Source of the DNA: Candidatus Thorarchaeota archaeon
GTDB taxonomy: Archaea > Asgardarchaeota > Thorarchaeia > Thorarchaeales > Thorarchaeaceae
Reading direction: 5' to 3'
NCBI GenBank assembly: GCA_016840245.1
Contig: JAEOST010000159.1
Location: 1-5,310, forward strand
Length of the DNA stretch: 5,310 nt
Shown one piece after another: positions 1 through 5,310 of this stretch (positions are counted from its first letter, which is position 1; each line of letters starts with the position of its first letter). The notes under the pieces were generated by a model. The model had not been told where the DNA came from, ran no database searches, and was given only the letters and a program-made list of their open reading frames with translations. The position numbers and the translations under genes were made by a program.

Positions 1-644
1 CGGACTGTACAGGTCTGGATATCGATGATGAACGTCAGCTCGTCCAGACTCGACCCGCCTTCGGTGGAAACATCATGGCGGAGATCCTCTGTCCTTACTC
101 ACGTCCTCAGATGGCAACAGTTAGACCCAACGTCTTCAAGCCAACTGAACGTGATGAGTCCCGCACTGGTGACATTGAGAAGATTGACATTCAGGTAAGT
201 CCTGTTCAAATCCGGACCAAGATCATTGAGAAGGTCCGTGAGGTCGCTGAGGGTGAGCTCTCAGTAGAAGAGACTGATATCGTGGTATGTAGCGGACGAG
301 GAATCAAAGATCCTTCAAATCTTGATCTACCCCGAGAACTTGCCAAGATATTGGATGCTGCTGTAGGTGGCTCTCGACCCATTGTGGACCTAGGTTGGCT
401 TCCACCAACTCAACAGGTGGGACAGTCTGGTAGAACAATCTCCCCCAAGCTGTACTTCGCGTTGGGAATCTCTGGGGCAATACAGCATCTCGCGGGGTGT
501 GCTACAGCGGATATCCTCGTAGCTATCAACAAAGACCCTGATGCTCCGATCTTTGAGGCAGCAGACTTCGGAATTGTTGGTGACTTATTCCAAATTCTGC
601 CAGAGATCATTGAAGAGATTAAACGGGTCAAAGCTGAGAGATAA
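1..644 (+). CDS. etfA: Electron transfer flavoprotein alpha subunit, C-terminal part (5' end outside window)
   Basis: The reading frame is open from base 3 to the TAA at 642-644, giving 213 residues. The first ATG at 75 is internal, because conserved family sequence (TRPAFGGNIMAEILCP, RPQMATVRP) straddles it. The family is usually about 320 residues, so roughly the N-terminal third is missing. EtfA binds FAD in its C-terminal domain and, with EtfB, passes electrons between flavin dehydrogenases and a membrane or bifurcating partner. The FAD-domain signature is complete: SGRGI, GGSRPIVDLGWLP, the QVGQSGRTISPKLY loop, ALGISGAIQHLAG, VAINKDPDAPIF and ADFGIVGDL. The C-terminus is LPEIIEEIKRVKAER. 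An etfB gene would be expected upstream, out of view. The last 15 codons recur at 4552-4599 beyond the STAND gene. The gene itself looks intact here. The electron partner cannot be told from this sequence. Confidence 0.96.
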   Translation, partial: DCTGLDIDDERQLVQTRPAFGGNIMAEILCPYSRPQMATVRPNVFKPTERDESRTGDIEKIDIQVSPVQIRTKIIEKVREVAEGELSVEETDIVVCSGRGIKDPSNLDLPRELAKILDAAVGGSRPIVDLGWLPPTQQVGQSGRTISPKLYFALGISGAIQHLAGCATADILVAINKDPDAPIFEAADFGIVGDLFQILPEIIEEIKRVKAER

Positions 645-690
645 ACCACATTGCCTGTCTAGTTATTCTTACTAGGCAGGTTTCTCTTCT
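597..690 (+). repeat. Direct repeat, left copy: etfA 3' end plus hairpin
   Basis: This segment is repeated at 4552-4649. From 600 to 643 it matches 4555-4598 at 41 of 44 positions, with differences at 602, 605 and 620. After a diverged stretch of about 10 nt with one indel, the hairpin and T-rich tail match again. It covers the last 15 codons, stop and hairpin of etfA. The left copy is fused to the complete etfA reading frame; the right copy is detached. Confidence 0.9.
653..690 (+). terminator. Hairpin and T-rich tail after etfA (copy 1)
   Basis: A 9-bp stem (CCTGTCTAG at 654-662 with CTAGGCAGG at 672-680, one G-U pair) encloses a 9-nt loop and is followed by a pyrimidine-rich tail, TTTCTCTTCTTTTAT. 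It begins 10 nt after the etfA stop. T-rich tracts are the known termination signal in archaea; the stem may stabilise the mRNA end. The converging gene at 692-1093 stops in the tail, so the hairpin also lies just past that gene's 3' end. A diverged but paired copy occurs at 4610-4636. Confidence 0.75.
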
Positions 691-691
691 T

Positions 692-1093
692 TTATCCGGC
701 GCCGCTCTTTCTTGACCAACGCATAACTGTATAATATGGCCAAGGGTGATTGTATGTATCGAAAAGGGATTCTGCTATCTCTCCCCAGGAAATCCCTTTA
801 CTTCTCATCTTTCTGATATGGTCTATCTCTAAAGTAGTCATCTTTCTTGAGTGGTCCCATGTATCAATCATTCTTGATAGTTTATCCAGATTATCTCTTA
901 TCTCTGTTGAATATCTGAACATACTGATTTCGGAAGCCTTCTTTATCGAATCTCTTGCATTGATTGCTACTGCACCGTCTCCTTTGTGCGTAATAATTCC
1001 AAACGTACCTAGTAAATCCCGGAAGAACTTTGTGTTTGTACTTGTGGCGATACTAAGGTTATTCACGTTTGGTTGAAGTGGAATAAGTATCAT
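692..1093 (-). CDS. LAGLIDADG homing-endonuclease-like protein, C-terminal half, with helix-turn-helix
   Basis: 133 residues, ATG at 1093 and TAA at 692. An in-frame TAA lies about nine codons upstream, so this is the only plausible start. Residues 12-33 (NLSIATSTNTKFFRDLLGTFGI) and 41-72 (AVAINARDSIKKASEISMF, then a basic region) follow the pattern of the second half of LAGLIDADG endonucleases: a strand, 'STN', a helix ending in LL..FGI, a strand, then 'SIKKF..IGF'. The LAGLIDADG helix, which carries the catalytic acid, is absent, and the usual IGF is SMF. The protein is therefore probably a truncated or repurposed remnant that cannot cut DNA alone. Residues 86-128 look like a helix-turn-helix (LEIDHIRKMRSKGISWGEIAESL, quoted as 87-100 and 101-110, then YTVMRWSRK). 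It could instead be a small DNA-binding regulator. The gene converges on etfA and diverges from the STAND gene. The family call is by pattern reading only. Confidence 0.55.
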   Translation of the reverse strand: MILIPLQPNVNNLSIATSTNTKFFRDLLGTFGIITHKGDGAVAINARDSIKKASEISMFRYSTEIRDNLDKLSRMIDTWDHSRKMTTLEIDHIRKMRSKGISWGEIAESLFDTYNHPWPYYTVMRWSRKSGAG

Positions 1094-1113
1094 CGTTTTG
1101 AAATTTTCAAGAA

Positions 1114-1123
1114 TAATTTAATC
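1114..1123 (-). promoter_or_regulatory. TATA-like box for the 692-1093 gene
   Basis: On the minus strand this reads GATTAAATTA, centred about 25 nt before the ATG at 1093. That spacing suits an archaeal TATA box driving a leaderless transcript, and no Shine-Dalgarno sequence precedes this ATG. The surrounding DNA is very AT-rich, which lowers the weight of the match. Confidence 0.4.
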
Positions 1124-1223
1124 ATTGAACATATCTCTAATGTTTACATTCTAATCGTATCTTATTGGAGATTGTTCAAGACTCTCAAAACAAAGAGTGA
1201 TGAATTGGGATGTGAAGCGACAC

Positions 1224-1240
1224 ATGGAGTGGGAAGTGAA
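1224..1240 (+). repeat. 17-bp direct repeat, copy upstream of the STAND gene
   Basis: ATGGAGTGGGAAGTGAA here matches 4438-4454 in the STAND gene at 16 of 17 positions. Read in the same phase both encode M-(E/K)-W-E-V-K, and the upstream copy is closed by TAA one codon later. It may be a relic of an older gene end, or chance. Confidence 0.45.
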
Positions 1241-1248
1241 GTAAATCA

Positions 1249-1257
1249 CTTTTAAAG
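1249..1257 (+). promoter_or_regulatory. Possible TATA-like box for the STAND gene
   Basis: CTTTTAAAG lies about 85 nt before the GTG start. With usual archaeal spacing, transcription would begin near 1280 and leave a leader of about 60 nt. The match is short and no clear BRE is visible, so this is only the best candidate in the interval. Confidence 0.25.
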
Positions 1258-1326
1258 AACTGTTTTAGCAAACGGCAACCGGCGTCTTTATGACAAGTTG
1301 CGTTCAATACAGATGAAGCGTGACCA

Positions 1327-1332
1327 GAGGGA
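1327..1332 (+). promoter_or_regulatory. Shine-Dalgarno-like site for the GTG start of the STAND gene
   Basis: GAGGGA ends 6 nt before the GTG at 1339. It supports this start, which is the only possible one in the frame because a TGA sits at 1321-1323 and no other start codon falls between. Confidence 0.5.
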
Positions 1333-1338
1333 TGCCCG

Positions 1339-4300
1339 GTGTATGAGCACTTCCAACCATCTGAGCAGGTATTCGTGGATAGAGAAGAGTATCTCGATTG
1401 GATGTCAGAGGCGCTCAAGAGATGCAAAGACCAATCTGTTGTTCTACACCTCCGAGGAATTGGAGGAATCGGAAAGAGCACGCTCTTGAATCACTGGATG
1501 AACACTGTGGAATCAGCCATTCGCCTAGATTGCCAGCAGTACCCAGATTTCTACAGTCGTCTGAATGTATTAGCCAAGGGTGCGGCACTTGTTGGCATAC
1601 GACTTCAGCGATTTGATGTCCTCTGGCAGATTCGTCAACGCTTCGTGGAAGGTGTGGAGCCAGTTAAACAAGAGGGACGGGAATGGGCGAAGGAGATTGC
1701 CATGGCCATACCCTTCATTGGGTCTCTCGCCAGCATTGGCAGCGCCATCAGTGCAGCAGGTTCAAAGATCGCTCCCAAACTGAAGGGGAAGTATAGTACG
1801 GTTGGTAAGTGGTTGGAGAACCGGCTGGGGAAGGATCATGTAGAGCGTTTGCTTGAGATTCTCTGGAAAGAACCTCGAAATGCAGAGTTTTTGTATTTGG
1901 ACTCACTCCTTGAAGACATAAATTGCCGGAATCAGACGGAACAACCCCTCCTCTTTCTCTTCGATCACTTTGAGTATGTTGACTATGACACTGCACTCTG
2001 GCGTTATAGAGGAAAGAAGATCAGCGAGGCCGAGCTGTGGTGTGTATTTCTTTCATCACTAAACCACAGTGTCGGTGTTTTGGGAAGTAGGAGGTCGAGT
2101 CCAACTGCAGGAGATGCGAAAAGAAGGGTCGAGGAGAAAGAGCTCACCGAGCTAGATGAAGTCAGTACTCGTGAATTACTTGAGAAGAGAGAAGTATCTG
2201 ACAATGCAATGCAGGATAGGATAGTGAGTGTGAGTGGTGGCAACCCATTCATCATTGATGCCATCTGTGACATGAAGGATACTGGTACGATTTCGTTGGA
2301 TGATGTAGAAAGCCTTCGAGCTGACACACTTGATAAAGTCCGTCTGATGACATGGCGTCGACTCTTCAATATGACAGCGGGACTTCAGGACATCATCAAA
2401 CGAGCTGGACTAATGGAGTTCTTTGGTCGCAGAGTAATGGACATCATCGCCCCATCTATGACCACTGATTTGTGGGACCAGCTTTTGCGTTTGAGCTTTG
2501 TCCGCTCGCGTGATGATGGTACTTGGGTGCTGCATGATTTGGCAAGAGAACTAATCATTGCTGAGTTGGGCTCGCGGGGTAAGAGTTTAGCAGAAGAAGT
2601 CGCTCAATTACTTGAGAAGAAATCAGATGATGAGGGCGATTTGACCCTAATTGGACACGCATTCTCAATTAGAGCGATTTTCTCAGAGGAGGAGGTCATC
2701 GAAAAAGTAAAGGAAGCAATCGATGACCTAGTCAGGAAAGATGCAGCACTGGAAGCGCTGGAAATTCTTGAAAATACAAGGTTTCAATCCACTAAAGGTA
2801 AAGCTGAGCTGCAAGGGCTTAAAGGCAAAGCATTGATCTTGACCTCACGTTATCCTGAAGCGGAGGAAGTGCTTCGAGAGGCCATAAGAGTCAATGAGGA
2901 ATTGGCAAAGGAGGAATCGGAGAAGCATCTTGACAGTGTGGCAGAATATCTTTGTGACCTATGGGAGGTATTGAAGAATACCAGAGTTGACGAAGCTTTC
3001 GACGCAATTTCAAGGGCTCTAGAGATTCAAAGAACCGTTGCAGCCCAGGGAGATCCTAAACAGCTCAAAACCCTAGCTTGGATTCTGGTGCAGTATGGTC
3101 TATCGCGGAGATTGAAGAATCCCTTAGATGCAATAAGTCCCATGCAAGAAGGAATTGCGATTTACAGGGAGATCAAAGAAATTGCTCAGGTTCCTTTTTC
3201 CCTAAATGCTCTCGGCTTAATACTGATGAACGCCAACAAGTGGGATGAAGCAGATGAAGTTATCCGCGAGGCAATTGAGCTTCAAAGAGGGTTGATTGAA
3301 TCTGAACCAGACAATCTACGCCTACCATCTGTCTTGGCCGCAATGTTGCACAACTTGGCATATATGGCTGATTTTAATGGTGACATGAAAGAAGCAGAAC
3401 GCCTTTTCACTGAAGCGTTGCAGATTCGTAGAAGTCTTGCTGACAGAGATCCTGATGTCTATATGCAAAGATTGGCAAGTGAGCTCTGGACCTATAGCAT
3501 ATTATGTTTCAAAATAAACCGACTAGACGAGACTGAACAGCTATGTATTGAGCTCCTTGAAATGGCACAGGAGAATGTTGAGGAATCACCAGAGGAGTAC
3601 AAACCTTGGATGGAACGTGCCCAATTTACTTTGAGCCAGGTCTATAGTATCCGTGGAAAGACAACTCAGGCCATTTCATCAATGAATCAGGCTATCGGAT
3701 CATGTAGGAAACGCGTTGAGCAGGGCGCCAACATTTTGAATTTAGGATCTCAACTCAGTATGTCTGCGGTCATCCGAATGAGGAATGGTGAGTATGAGAA
3801 GGCAGAAGAGGAACTACTTGAAGCCATTCAGCTCTACCGTGATTATGGGTCATTGCCGCACAGGTTCCATGCTGACCTTGCTTTGTTTCTAAATAATCAT
3901 GGGATTATACTCCGGTGTAAGGGTAGCTTTCCCGAAGCAAAGGCAGTACTTGAAGAAGCTCTAGAAATTTCTCGCGGAAAAGTGGATGAGTCACCAGAGG
4001 CCTACAAAGGGCTTCTTTCAATTGTGCTCTGCAACCTTGCTATTATTCTAGCGGAGAATAATGAATTGGAGGCTGCGGGTCCTCATTTTCAGGAGTCGCT
4101 ATCCATTGGTGAGTACCTTGCCAAGAGAACACCTGAGCAATACAGAATCCATCTAGCAATACTGCTTCACAACTACTCCCAATTCCTTCTCAAGGCAGAC
4201 CGAAAGTCGGAGGCATACTCCAATTTGAAGAGAACAGTTGATATCAAACGGGAGCTTGTAAGGGAATTTCCAGGGATGTTCGAAGCGAGTCTTGTAGTAT

Positions 4301-4482
4301 CACTAAGAAATCTGTCAGTAATGTTGCGAGAGGACAATTCGCATGACTCAGGAGAAGTCCTCCAAGAAGTTGTTGAAATCTGTAAACAAGCCCAGTATCC
4401 CAGTTTAGAAGAAATGACCAAAGAAGAGACCTGGCAGATGAAGTGGGAAGTGAAATTCGGGGGGTTTGGAGATACACCCTAG
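1339..4482 (+). CDS. STAND-class (NLR-like) NTPase with C-terminal TPR array
   Basis: 1047 residues, GTG start, TAG at 4480-4482. The NTPase domain shows the P-loop GIGGIGKST (40-48), Walker B LLFLFDHFE (204-212, D209 and E212), an arginine-bearing sensor-like GSRR (249-252) and the GxP motif GGNPF (300-304). A winged helix follows at about 340-425, ending in VLHDLAREL (397-405), whose H399-D400 recalls the MHD motif. From about 485 to 1015 there are about twelve TPR-like helical pairs at about 45-residue spacing, for example WDEADEVIREAIELQR (635-650), MKEAERLFTEALQIRR (683-698) and FPEAKAVLEEALEISR (864-879). STAND proteins are ATP-driven switches that oligomerise when the repeat domain senses a ligand; many defend against viruses. 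Only 39 residues precede the P-loop, so there is no N-terminal effector domain. A Gly/Ala-rich hydrophobic stretch (about 121-145) lies between Walker A and B. No neighbour is an obvious effector, so a defence role is inference; regulation or scaffolding is possible. Confidence 0.93.
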   Translation: MYEHFQPSEQVFVDREEYLDWMSEALKRCKDQSVVLHLRGIGGIGKSTLLNHWMNTVESAIRLDCQQYPDFYSRLNVLAKGAALVGIRLQRFDVLWQIRQRFVEGVEPVKQEGREWAKEIAMAIPFIGSLASIGSAISAAGSKIAPKLKGKYSTVGKWLENRLGKDHVERLLEILWKEPRNAEFLYLDSLLEDINCRNQTEQPLLFLFDHFEYVDYDTALWRYRGKKISEAELWCVFLSSLNHSVGVLGSRRSSPTAGDAKRRVEEKELTELDEVSTRELLEKREVSDNAMQDRIVSVSGGNPFIIDAICDMKDTGTISLDDVESLRADTLDKVRLMTWRRLFNMTAGLQDIIKRAGLMEFFGRRVMDIIAPSMTTDLWDQLLRLSFVRSRDDGTWVLHDLARELIIAELGSRGKSLAEEVAQLLEKKSDDEGDLTLIGHAFSIRAIFSEEEVIEKVKEAIDDLVRKDAALEALEILENTRFQSTKGKAELQGLKGKALILTSRYPEAEEVLREAIRVNEELAKEESEKHLDSVAEYLCDLWEVLKNTRVDEAFDAISRALEIQRTVAAQGDPKQLKTLAWILVQYGLSRRLKNPLDAISPMQEGIAIYREIKEIAQVPFSLNALGLILMNANKWDEADEVIREAIELQRGLIESEPDNLRLPSVLAAMLHNLAYMADFNGDMKEAERLFTEALQIRRSLADRDPDVYMQRLASELWTYSILCFKINRLDETEQLCIELLEMAQENVEESPEEYKPWMERAQFTLSQVYSIRGKTTQAISSMNQAIGSCRKRVEQGANILNLGSQLSMSAVIRMRNGEYEKAEEELLEAIQLYRDYGSLPHRFHADLALFLNNHGIILRCKGSFPEAKAVLEEALEISRGKVDESPEAYKGLLSIVLCNLAIILAENNELEAAGPHFQESLSIGEYLAKRTPEQYRIHLAILLHNYSQFLLKADRKSEAYSNLKRTVDIKRELVREFPGMFEASLVVSLRNLSVMLREDNSHDSGEVLQEVVEICKQAQYPSLEEMTKEETWQMKWEVKFGGFGDTP
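4438..4454 (+). repeat. 17-bp direct repeat, copy inside the STAND gene 3' end
   Basis: Partner of 1224-1240, with one mismatch at 4441. It encodes MKWEVK, residues 1034-1039, near the C-terminus of the STAND protein. With its partner it brackets almost the whole STAND gene. Confidence 0.45.
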
Positions 4483-4490
4483 TCACCGAT

Positions 4491-4512
4491 TCTTCCACTA
4501 GGGGGAGGAAGA
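4491..4512 (+). other. Small inverted repeat just after the STAND gene
   Basis: TCTTCC (4491-4496) pairs with GGAAGA (4507-4512) around a 10-nt loop, starting 8 nt after the STAND stop codon. It could mark the mRNA end, but no T-rich tail follows, and the stronger hairpin at 4610 may do that job. The rest of 4483-4551 shows nothing else recognisable. Confidence 0.25.
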
Positions 4513-4542
4513 GCACTTGAGATACTCAGCTAGTAAACTACA

Positions 4543-4599
4543 ATGGTTAGATTACCGGAAATCATTGAAGAGATAAAACGGGTCAAAGCTGAGAGATAG
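4543..4599 (+). pseudogene. Detached second copy of the etfA 3' end
   Basis: From 4552 to the TAG at 4597-4599 this encodes LPEIIEEIKRVKAER, identical to the last 15 residues of the etfA product at the start of the window. Relative to etfA, the codons for L, P, E and I differ only by synonymous changes (CTG/TTA, CCA/CCG, GAG/GAA, ATT/ATA), and the stop is TAG instead of TAA. An ATG at 4543 would make an 18-codon frame, MVRLPEIIEEIKRVKAER, but no ribosome site precedes it and the first three residues do not match etfA. No trace of upstream etfA sequence is seen in 4483-4551. Most likely this is the original or displaced gene end beyond an insertion; a relic of an etfA paralogue is the alternative. 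Confidence 0.85.
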
Positions 4600-4649
4600 T
4601 AGAGTGAATCCTGTCCAGTTATCGCTACTGGACGGGTTCTTCCTCCTAT
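4552..4649 (+). repeat. Direct repeat, right copy: etfA 3' end plus hairpin
   Basis: Counterpart of 597-690 at an offset of 3955 in the coding part and 3956 in the hairpin, so one indel separates them. The copy ends at the stop codon of the converging NosD-like gene, just as the left copy ends at the stop of the 692-1093 gene. Confidence 0.9.
4610..4649. terminator. Hairpin and pyrimidine-rich tail (copy 2), between convergent gene ends
   Basis: CCTGTCCAG (4610-4618) pairs with CTGGACGGG (4628-4636) in a 9-bp stem with one G-U pair and a 9-nt loop, followed by TTCTTCCTCCTAT. Compared with copy 1, stem pair 7/21 is C-G instead of T-A, pair 5/23 is T-A instead of T-G, and pair 3/25 is T-G instead of T-A; pairing survives every change. 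It lies between the STAND gene and the converging NosD-like gene, whose stop is 9 nt away, and may serve both. Confidence 0.7.
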
Positions 4650-5310
4650 AACCTAGTCTTACGATACATGATGACGATGGCCAGAACTGCTACAACTGTA
4701 CCCACGCCCAGAATCGTGATGACCAAGTTGGGCAAATTTCCGTTTCCTGTTGTAGTTCTTGTAGTGCTTGTGGTTGGAATAGTAGGTGGATATACCAATG
4801 GATGGTAGTCTATGCGATTTCCTCTTCCGGGTATATGATACACACCCGTGCCAGAATAGTCAGACCAGAAGTTACCCTTTCCTGTGGTATTCCAGTGATT
4901 GTTAATTCCTTTGTCGTATGCATTTTTGTTATCGTTATTGGTAATTACATTAAGATAGACACGGTTGTTCTCAGCTTTATATCCTAAATATACCCCGAAA
5001 TTTGAGTTTCTAGAAATTGTATTCCTCACTACCAAGTTATTCAAAGAATATTGGAAAATCACACCATCATAATTCTCGATGATTGAATTGTTTAGCACTG
5101 TGTTCTCAGAGGAGTCTACGAGATACACACCATAGTTGTTACCCTTGATAGTATTGTTCATCATAGTAGTATCAGATGAATCCTTGAGATCCACACCAGT
5201 TCTGGTGTTGTTTAAGATGGGATGAGGTTTACCAAAGATTCTGTTGCTCACTACCTTATTGGATGATGAGTAAAGTATCCGTACTCCTGACCAGAGGTTT
5301 CCTGAGATAG
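4646..5310 (-). CDS. NosD-like parallel beta-helix surface protein with C-terminal membrane anchor (N-terminus outside window)
   Basis: The frame is open from the window edge at 5310 to the TAG at 4646-4648, about 220 residues. A GTG at 5251 is not the start: beta-helix sequence continues upstream (SGNLWSGVRILYSSSNKVV). At least four rungs of 22-24 residues repeat the pattern G-V-x-L-x-x-S-x-x-N-x-x-x-x-N-x-I, for example GVYLVDSSENTVLNNSI. A cap follows with GNFWSDYSGTGVYHIPGRGN and IDYHPLVYPP, as in many archaeal right-handed beta-helix proteins. A Thr-rich stalk (TIPTTSTTRTTTGNGN) then leads to a membrane helix (about VITILGVGTVVAVLAIVIMY) and a basic tail (RKTRL). The protein is thus anchored at its C-terminus with the helix outside the cell. 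Such folds bind or process sugars, but no catalytic residues can be identified here. It converges on the STAND gene and is probably old flanking DNA, unrelated to the module. Confidence 0.88.
   Translation of the reverse strand, partial: ISGNLWSGVRILYSSSNKVVSNRIFGKPHPILNNTRTGVDLKDSSDTTMMNNTIKGNNYGVYLVDSSENTVLNNSIIENYDGVIFQYSLNNLVVRNTISRNSNFGVYLGYKAENNRVYLNVITNNDNKNAYDKGINNHWNTTGKGNFWSDYSGTGVYHIPGRGNRIDYHPLVYPPTIPTTSTTRTTTGNGNLPNLVITILGVGTVVAVLAIVIMYRKTRL

Follow-up and report, generated by a model that had tools for sequence, protein, structure and literature searches.

How did the 3′ end of etfA come to be present twice in the genome of a Candidatus Thorarchaeota archaeon? The window analysed here, the whole 5,310-nucleotide (nt) stretch that forms positions 1 to 5,310 of contig JAEOST010000159.1 (assembly GCA_016840245.1), holds the C-terminal part of etfA on the + strand (positions 3 to 644; PF00766 and PF01012 in Pfam). 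Its attached, functional 3′ end forms the first copy of a repeat (597 to 690, + strand) comprising the final 15 codons, the stop codon (642–644) and a hairpin (about 653–681); a displaced copy (4552 to 4649, + strand), with 15 etfA codons, a stop codon (4597–4599) and a hairpin (about 4610–4636), lies 3.96 kb downstream. A repeat search aligned positions 600–643 with 4555–4598 at 93% identity over 44 nt, and thereby bore out, to within a few bases, the diverged direct repeats of 15 etfA codons, stop and hairpin that had been described from the letters alone (hereafter the sequence-only reading). The peptide LPEIIEEIKRVKAER is the same in both copies, since all five nucleotide differences across the 15 codons are synonymous. 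Each stop codon is followed by its hairpin (z-scores of −4.56 for the attached and −3.74 for the displaced copy); on visual inspection, a U-A pair in the left stem corresponds to C-G in the right one. In the right copy, similarity to etfA starts at 4552–4555, with no further etfA upstream of that point. Between the two copies lie the C-terminal remnant, 133 amino acids (aa), of a LAGLIDADG homing-endonuclease-like (HE) gene that is convergent with etfA (692 to 1093, − strand) and a cargo gene encoding a 1047-aa protein (1339 to 4482, + strand).

We read the window as a decayed homing element which entered etfA near its 3′ end, carried a replacement end with it and displaced the old one, and we put the probability of this reading at roughly 0.78. 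The endonuclease would cut an element-free allele within the gene end, and repair of the cut would copy the element in. The element would supply its own diverged gene end, B′, linked to its nuclease, leaving the gene intact and no longer cut; the old end, B, would stay on the far side as the right-hand homology arm for later homing. The resulting order would be A-B′-HE-(cargo)-B, in which the duplication would be needed because B′ keeps the gene whole and B allows renewed homing. The nuclease would decay afterwards and cargo would accumulate, and the site, being open to repeat invasion, could acquire a series of displaced ends.

Does the open reading frame (ORF) at 692–1093 derive from a nuclease? 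It has no Pfam match of its own at E <= 0.1, and it aligns over 117 residues, at 50% identity, with residues 429–545 of an intact 551-aa HE-family protein that adjoins etfA at locus L204, in agreement with the homing-endonuclease-like gene of the sequence-only reading. The remnant lacks both motifs of the family, which we take to be LAGLIDADG motifs, and everything preceding them. The proteins of this family are about 550–600 aa long, some being embedded in longer ORFs, and where the source names them they are called "hypothetical protein". Six of the eight members scanned match LAGLIDADG_3 (Pfam) above cut-off, and the motif aspartates D352 and D474/D476 are invariant in an alignment of 26 rows, two of which are one protein. 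Since a profile of the family gave nothing better than E 0.049 against the PDB sequences (0.053 for PI-PkoII), we compared folds. The structure model of the 606-aa L155 protein (predicted local distance difference test, pLDDT, 85.8; predicted template modelling score, pTM, 0.73) had 34 matches in the PDB at E <= 0.001, each of them a LAGLIDADG endonuclease, a LAGLIDADG intein or a LAGLIDADG maturase, with I-DmoI, I-SceI, E-DreI and PI-SceI among those named. By sequence family, modelled fold and the aspartates of the two motifs, the proteins are thus predicted to be LAGLIDADG endonucleases. Queried with the L001 protein, 13 of 29 genomes contained the family; the 606-aa protein detected it in 37 of 227 genomes belonging to the phylum of G001. 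A profile search of a protein collection, in which 7994 candidates were scored, recovered exactly the 23 proteins that the single query had yielded, and among viral contigs three stretches fitted the pattern and none was confirmed. HE genes often stand at contig ends (L165, L168, L207, L221, L240 and others), as if breaking assemblies.

The layout of the window recurs elsewhere. Second copies of gene ends were sought at 63 HE loci (60 fetched with their flanks plus the window, L001 and L013; 687 ORFs). By strict criteria, 15 of the 614 non-HE genes scanned had a displaced end; 112 of the 614 genes adjoin an HE, and so do 12 of these 15 (Fisher p 2.3e-7). The HE stands between the gene and its displaced end in 11 rows, that is in 10 of the 63 loci, window included (L224 counts twice), and these loci have the layout of the mORFs discussed below, an endonuclease ORF between the attached and displaced copies of a gene end. 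Displaced 3′ ends belong to etfA in the window, to acyl-CoA dehydrogenase at L155 (two copies) and L169 (two copies and a weaker third), to a MoxR-like gene at L224 and to a 146-aa gene at L243 (two copies); displaced 5′ ends belong to gcvT (L157), to hutU-like genes (L163 and L229), to an oadB-like gene (L212) and to an argF-like gene (L230). Gene names besides etfA were assigned by reading the sequences. The remaining rows were a pccB-like gene at L208, HE-adjacent and with its displaced 3′ end on the side away from the HE, and genes at L209, L222 and L241 (a repeat protein) that are not HE-adjacent. As a control, the scan was repeated on 418 genes at Thorarchaeal loci where no HE adjoins etfA. 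Besides the etfA ends and rows whose query was a displaced etfA piece, it picked up three further genes: one in L028 and two in L026, of which one is ABC-transporter-like and stands next to a similar gene. Among the 206 genes of 16 bacterial loci, a single gene had a displaced end.

Several individual loci of this survey are worth recording. The displaced oadB 5′ end of L212 (10417–10704, − strand) still has its start codon and stays open for 95 codons. At L238, L242 and L243, HE-like ORFs of about 910 aa match the family in their N-terminal part only and face the 3′ end of one small gene of 144–146 aa in three genomes; their nuclease part may differ in kind. Displaced 3′ ends not across the HE of the locus were seen at L208 (5527–5640 and 9426–9458), L209 (9277–9342) and L222 (1052–1117), and derive from pccB-like genes and a 509-aa gene. 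At L158, a fragment at the contig edge (1–39), on the far side of the HE, resembles the 5′ end of an L44e-like gene (3412–3702; E 0.001). The displaced 3′ end of a 256-aa gene in L028 (6286–6444; 85% aa identity) and the displaced 5′ end of a 238-aa gene in L026 (12668–12799; 61%) have no HE visible beside them, and both genes are probably further targets.

The HE 3′ end adjoins the neighbouring gene, mostly within 180 nt; this distance was taken to the closest predicted ORF, and some such ORFs may be spurious. The orientation at all 10 loci follows the end of the gene that is hit: with 3′ ends the HE is convergent, with 5′ ends co-directional. In either case the HE turns its own 3′ end towards the gene, the displaced end being situated past the 5′ end of the HE. 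We then built a tree from the 29 of 69 HE stretches that have a nameable target, in which the window row covers 31% of the columns and L001 was given the etfA label by its position beside etfA. The target label changes 10 times over this tree, the minimum possible, as compared with a mean of 21.1 for shuffled labels, and none of 200 shuffles was equally low. The HEs of etfA, acyl-CoA dehydrogenase, oadB, hutU and sec61beta each form one supported group, those of pccB do not, and the clade of the window remnant (four rows: window, L001, L013 and L204; support 100/100) is found exclusively beside etfA. The breakpoints recur as well. Displaced etfA ends mostly begin 42–54 codons before the stop, and the H-L-A-G codons at which most detached tails start occupy 486–497 (+ strand) in the window; the four displaced acyl-CoA dehydrogenase ends, from two genomes, start 21–25 codons before the stop; and for oadB, the displaced ends found in G219 and G020 share the codons at which they stop, the one in G020 being on a different contig from the HE. 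From the target-specific clades and the recurrent breakpoints, we infer that the endonuclease drives the mobility.

These regularities bear on an explanation in which foreign DNA enters next to conserved genes, recombining homologously with the gene end on one side and being joined illegitimately on the other, with HE genes as hitchhikers in the cargo. Such a process fits the detached etfA tails described below, most of which are accompanied by cargo and no HE, as well as G219, where the displaced and attached oadB ends are identical in the stretch closest to the break. It does not predict that displaced ends adjoin an HE, that the orientation is constant in 10 loci, or that HE clades are target-specific and breakpoints recurrent, and we consider it unlikely.

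Where did the two ends come from? Over 27 attached/displaced pairs from several genes, the proportion of synonymous differences (pS) was 0.714 and that of non-synonymous differences (pN) 0.130, a pN/pS of 0.18 (0.00–0.50 in single pairs). This ratio indicates that both ends were under coding selection through most of their divergence, as expected of two functional alleles and unlike a decaying local duplicate. The etfA genes themselves are mosaic. L017 and L025 are 0.90 identical upstream and 0.76–0.79 in their attached ends, and a displaced end in the genome of L025 (contig C188) is 0.90 identical to the L017 end (blastn). Judged by this relative, the attached end at the L025 etfA is clearly foreign by sequence comparison and the displaced end native. 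Likewise, L012, L021 and L027 share 0.86–0.90 upstream versus 0.71–0.72 over the final 147 nt, and identity drops about 150–165 nt before the etfA stop in the pairs L012-L027, L012-L021, L021-L027, L017-L025 and L019-L023, at the place where most detached tails begin. As a caution, across all 435 pairs the etfA tail averages 0.05 lower identity than the part upstream of it. For oadB, the displaced 5′ end of G020 is nearest to G023, G013, G003 and G027 (0.83–0.86), and by etfA this host also pairs best with L023 and L027; the attached end comes closest to G018, G008 and G019 (0.79) and the gene body to G018 (0.80). This case is weaker and is suggestive of a native displaced end, and more than the attached end may be foreign. 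The tree of oadB ends was computed from 79 residues, with three of 25 inner branches starred; L265, L268 and L273 were dropped (registration motif not found), L164 stands in place of L264, and G220 is without a 5′ end.

The same data speak to the possibility that the right copy is the final piece of a decayed etfA duplicate. Several genomes (G003, G004, G025) do have more than one tail copy, as such duplication could produce. However, the detached copies hold no more than about 60 final codons, the differences are mostly synonymous, and at L025 it is the displaced copy, not the attached one, that better matches the end of the relative. The idea is largely contradicted by these observations and we find it hardly credible.

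The sequence-only reading had proposed that the etfA 3′ end is an insertion site, and had suggested looking in archaeal genomes for detached copies of its peptide downstream of etfA. The 29 best etfA-related loci are Asgard records, mostly named Thorarchaeota, the group to which they assign the window. We examined 26 Thorarchaeal genomes whose etfA has no directly adjoining HE (one, L029, being without the etfA 3′ end) and found, by strict criteria, detached same-strand etfA 3′ ends downstream of etfA in 10 of them: L002 (two copies), L018, L020, L021, L022, L023, L025, L026, L027 and the genome of L009, where the tail lies about 9.3 kb from etfA (in the longer stretch L123). L028 has a shorter etfA piece directly after the stop. 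A whole-genome search added tails on other contigs: three on contig C115 of G003, one on C188 of G025 and one on C67 of G018. None of the copies listed extends into a second full etfA, the length of about 60 codons never being exceeded. The genes between the copies vary and comprise NosD-like and beta-propeller proteins and proteins without a Pfam family, with like ORFs in L018 and L020. On G003 C115, the two genes that stand directly downstream of the intact etfA in L012 are found behind a detached tail, so that L012 and C115 represent the empty and the occupied site. A comparison of relatives thus shows either a single end or differing cargo between two or three copies, which supports insertion at this place.

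Two of these contigs deserve a further remark. The tails of G003 C115 (L118/L119), at 2042–2197, 19408–19560 and 21895–21981, span about 20 kb of a contig that lacks etfA, and a masked stretch separates the last two. In L025, a 399-aa protein without a Pfam match (5159–6358, − strand) is encoded between etfA and the displaced tail, and is possibly a different nuclease.

Could an integrase have done the same? The sequence-only reading had compared the locus with integrative elements, and elements of this kind are known to restore the 3′ ends of protein-coding genes such as icd and rlmH; they leave behind a restored gene end and a displaced old one whose edge recurs, together with tandem series and cargo. 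In this scenario, a tyrosine or serine recombinase would have used etfA as its attachment site and restored the 3′ end, the integrase being lost since and the endonuclease being a passenger. The restored end, displaced old end, series and cargo seen here are the traces expected of such elements, and the edge at the H-L-A-G codons does recur. When PF00589 was searched for (serine recombinases were not), seven of 17 genomes had a match and no contig bearing a detached etfA tail held one, which disfavours a classical integrative element; the other 10 genomes had no match at all, with the caveat that metagenome-assembled genomes are incomplete. The sole match on an etfA contig, in G002, is separated from etfA by about 175 kb of a contig 2.58 Mb long. 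The integrase within or beside the element that would characterize a tyrosine-recombinase element was thus not found in the 17 genomes searched. In addition, an integrase accounts neither for the target specificity of the HE lineages nor for the displaced 5′ ends. In contrast to the icd and rlmH type, with which it shares the restored end, displaced old end, series and cargo, the system described here showed no tyrosine integrase beside its tails in the genomes searched, hits 5′ ends too, and is associated with an enzyme of an endonuclease family. We therefore regard recombinase-mediated integration as very unlikely. The earlier inference of an insertion site in etfA is supported, with two changes: a homing endonuclease is the most probable mover, and etfA is not special as a target, nor are 3′ ends.

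Several observations weigh against entry by a homing endonuclease. The displaced end of the window has 15 codons before the stop instead of the usual 42–54; a later deletion of its front part, or a different cut site, would explain this. The two scanned members of the etfA clade fell under the LAGLIDADG_3 cut-off (L001, 15.1 bits; L013, 13.1 bits). The other etfA-clade HE loci, L001, L013 and L204, have no displaced etfA end nearby, and the HE of L001 is in reverse orientation. In 53 of the 63 HE loci, the strict criteria detected no end displaced across the HE, many contigs stopping near the HE, and at L209, L222, L026 and L028 ends are displaced away from an HE. In the pairs L018-L020 and L020-L022, identity shows a local dip near −165 to −105 that recovers afterwards. 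Finally, the HE is absent beside most detached etfA tails; a degenerate trace, about 2 kb past the tail, was seen in G027 only. We assume that the HE has been lost at these tails. The available part of one source describes loss after homing as the usual fate of homing genes (PMC13405050).

As for the remaining content of the window, the cargo protein looks like a STAND NTPase by sequence: its TPR repeats match Pfam above cut-off, and the STAND/AAA_16-like region falls below it (29.8 bits, cut-off 32.6). The suggestion that the cargo is possibly defensive found no support, no PADLOC-DB family matching ORF 692–1093 or ORF 1339–4482 at E <= 0.1. Past the displaced copy lies a NosD-like gene (4646–5308, − strand; PF05048, PF13229) that is open at the window end. 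The NosD of L002 was considered as shared context and rejected as too dissimilar (28% identity). No RNA families or tRNAs were found in the window.

Altogether, the sequences suggest that relatives of DNA-cutting selfish genes enter Thorarchaeal genes without killing them, by means of a replacement end, and in doing so shuffle gene ends between species. We think it probable that Thorarchaeota, and some other members of the phylum, harbour many free-standing HE lineages, each directed at one conserved protein gene, which replace 5′ or 3′ gene ends without an intron or intein; housekeeping genes would thereby become cross-species allele mosaics, and the landing pads would fill with accessory genes. 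To our knowledge, gene-end replacement as an entry route of homing endonucleases is otherwise known from fungal mitochondria only, and among the matches listed in a search of titles and abstract openings of the open-licence literature, we found no report of HE-linked gene-end replacement in archaea or bacteria. Were it common in Asgard archaea, core metabolic genes would exchange parts between species in the lineage nearest to eukaryotes, which matters for gene trees, and cargo would have an integrase-free route. The proposed mechanism also gives exact, testable predictions of cut sites.

How does this compare with known systems? HeimM2 of Heimdallarchaeum is likewise an Asgard mobile element with a homing endonuclease; it is 8 kb long, and its HE is thought to direct site-specific insertion (PMC8813620). 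It differs in that its endonuclease is related to rRNA-intron enzymes and its site lies between the 16S rRNA gene and a tRNA gene, and the accessible portion of that paper describes no replaced protein-gene end. With LAGLIDADG inteins and group I introns, as far as they are presented in the part of PMC3943268 at hand, our system shares the nuclease fold and homing into conserved coding sequence. According to the available parts of PMC3943268 and PMC13405050, self-splicing partners free HEs to invade conserved genes, and free-standing HEs are generally intergenic. Unlike the intein and intron systems (PMC3943268), there is no splicing here and a replacement end would keep the gene whole; gene-end replacement may thus be another way into coding sequence for HEs. 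The closest likeness is with the mORFs of fungal mitochondria, reported for atp6 in Allomyces and for atp6, atp9, cox2 and nad3 in Glomus (PMC3630166). In both cases, to the extent that this source is available, the HE ORF lies between a foreign end joined to the gene and a displaced native end, the differences between the ends are largely synonymous, and the native end groups with close relatives. Unlike the mORFs in the accessible text of that source, the elements described here reside in archaeal chromosomes, affect 5′ as well as 3′ ends of many target genes, usually have the HE antisense to the target at 3′ ends, and come with additional N- and C-terminal HE parts, cargo and series of displaced ends.

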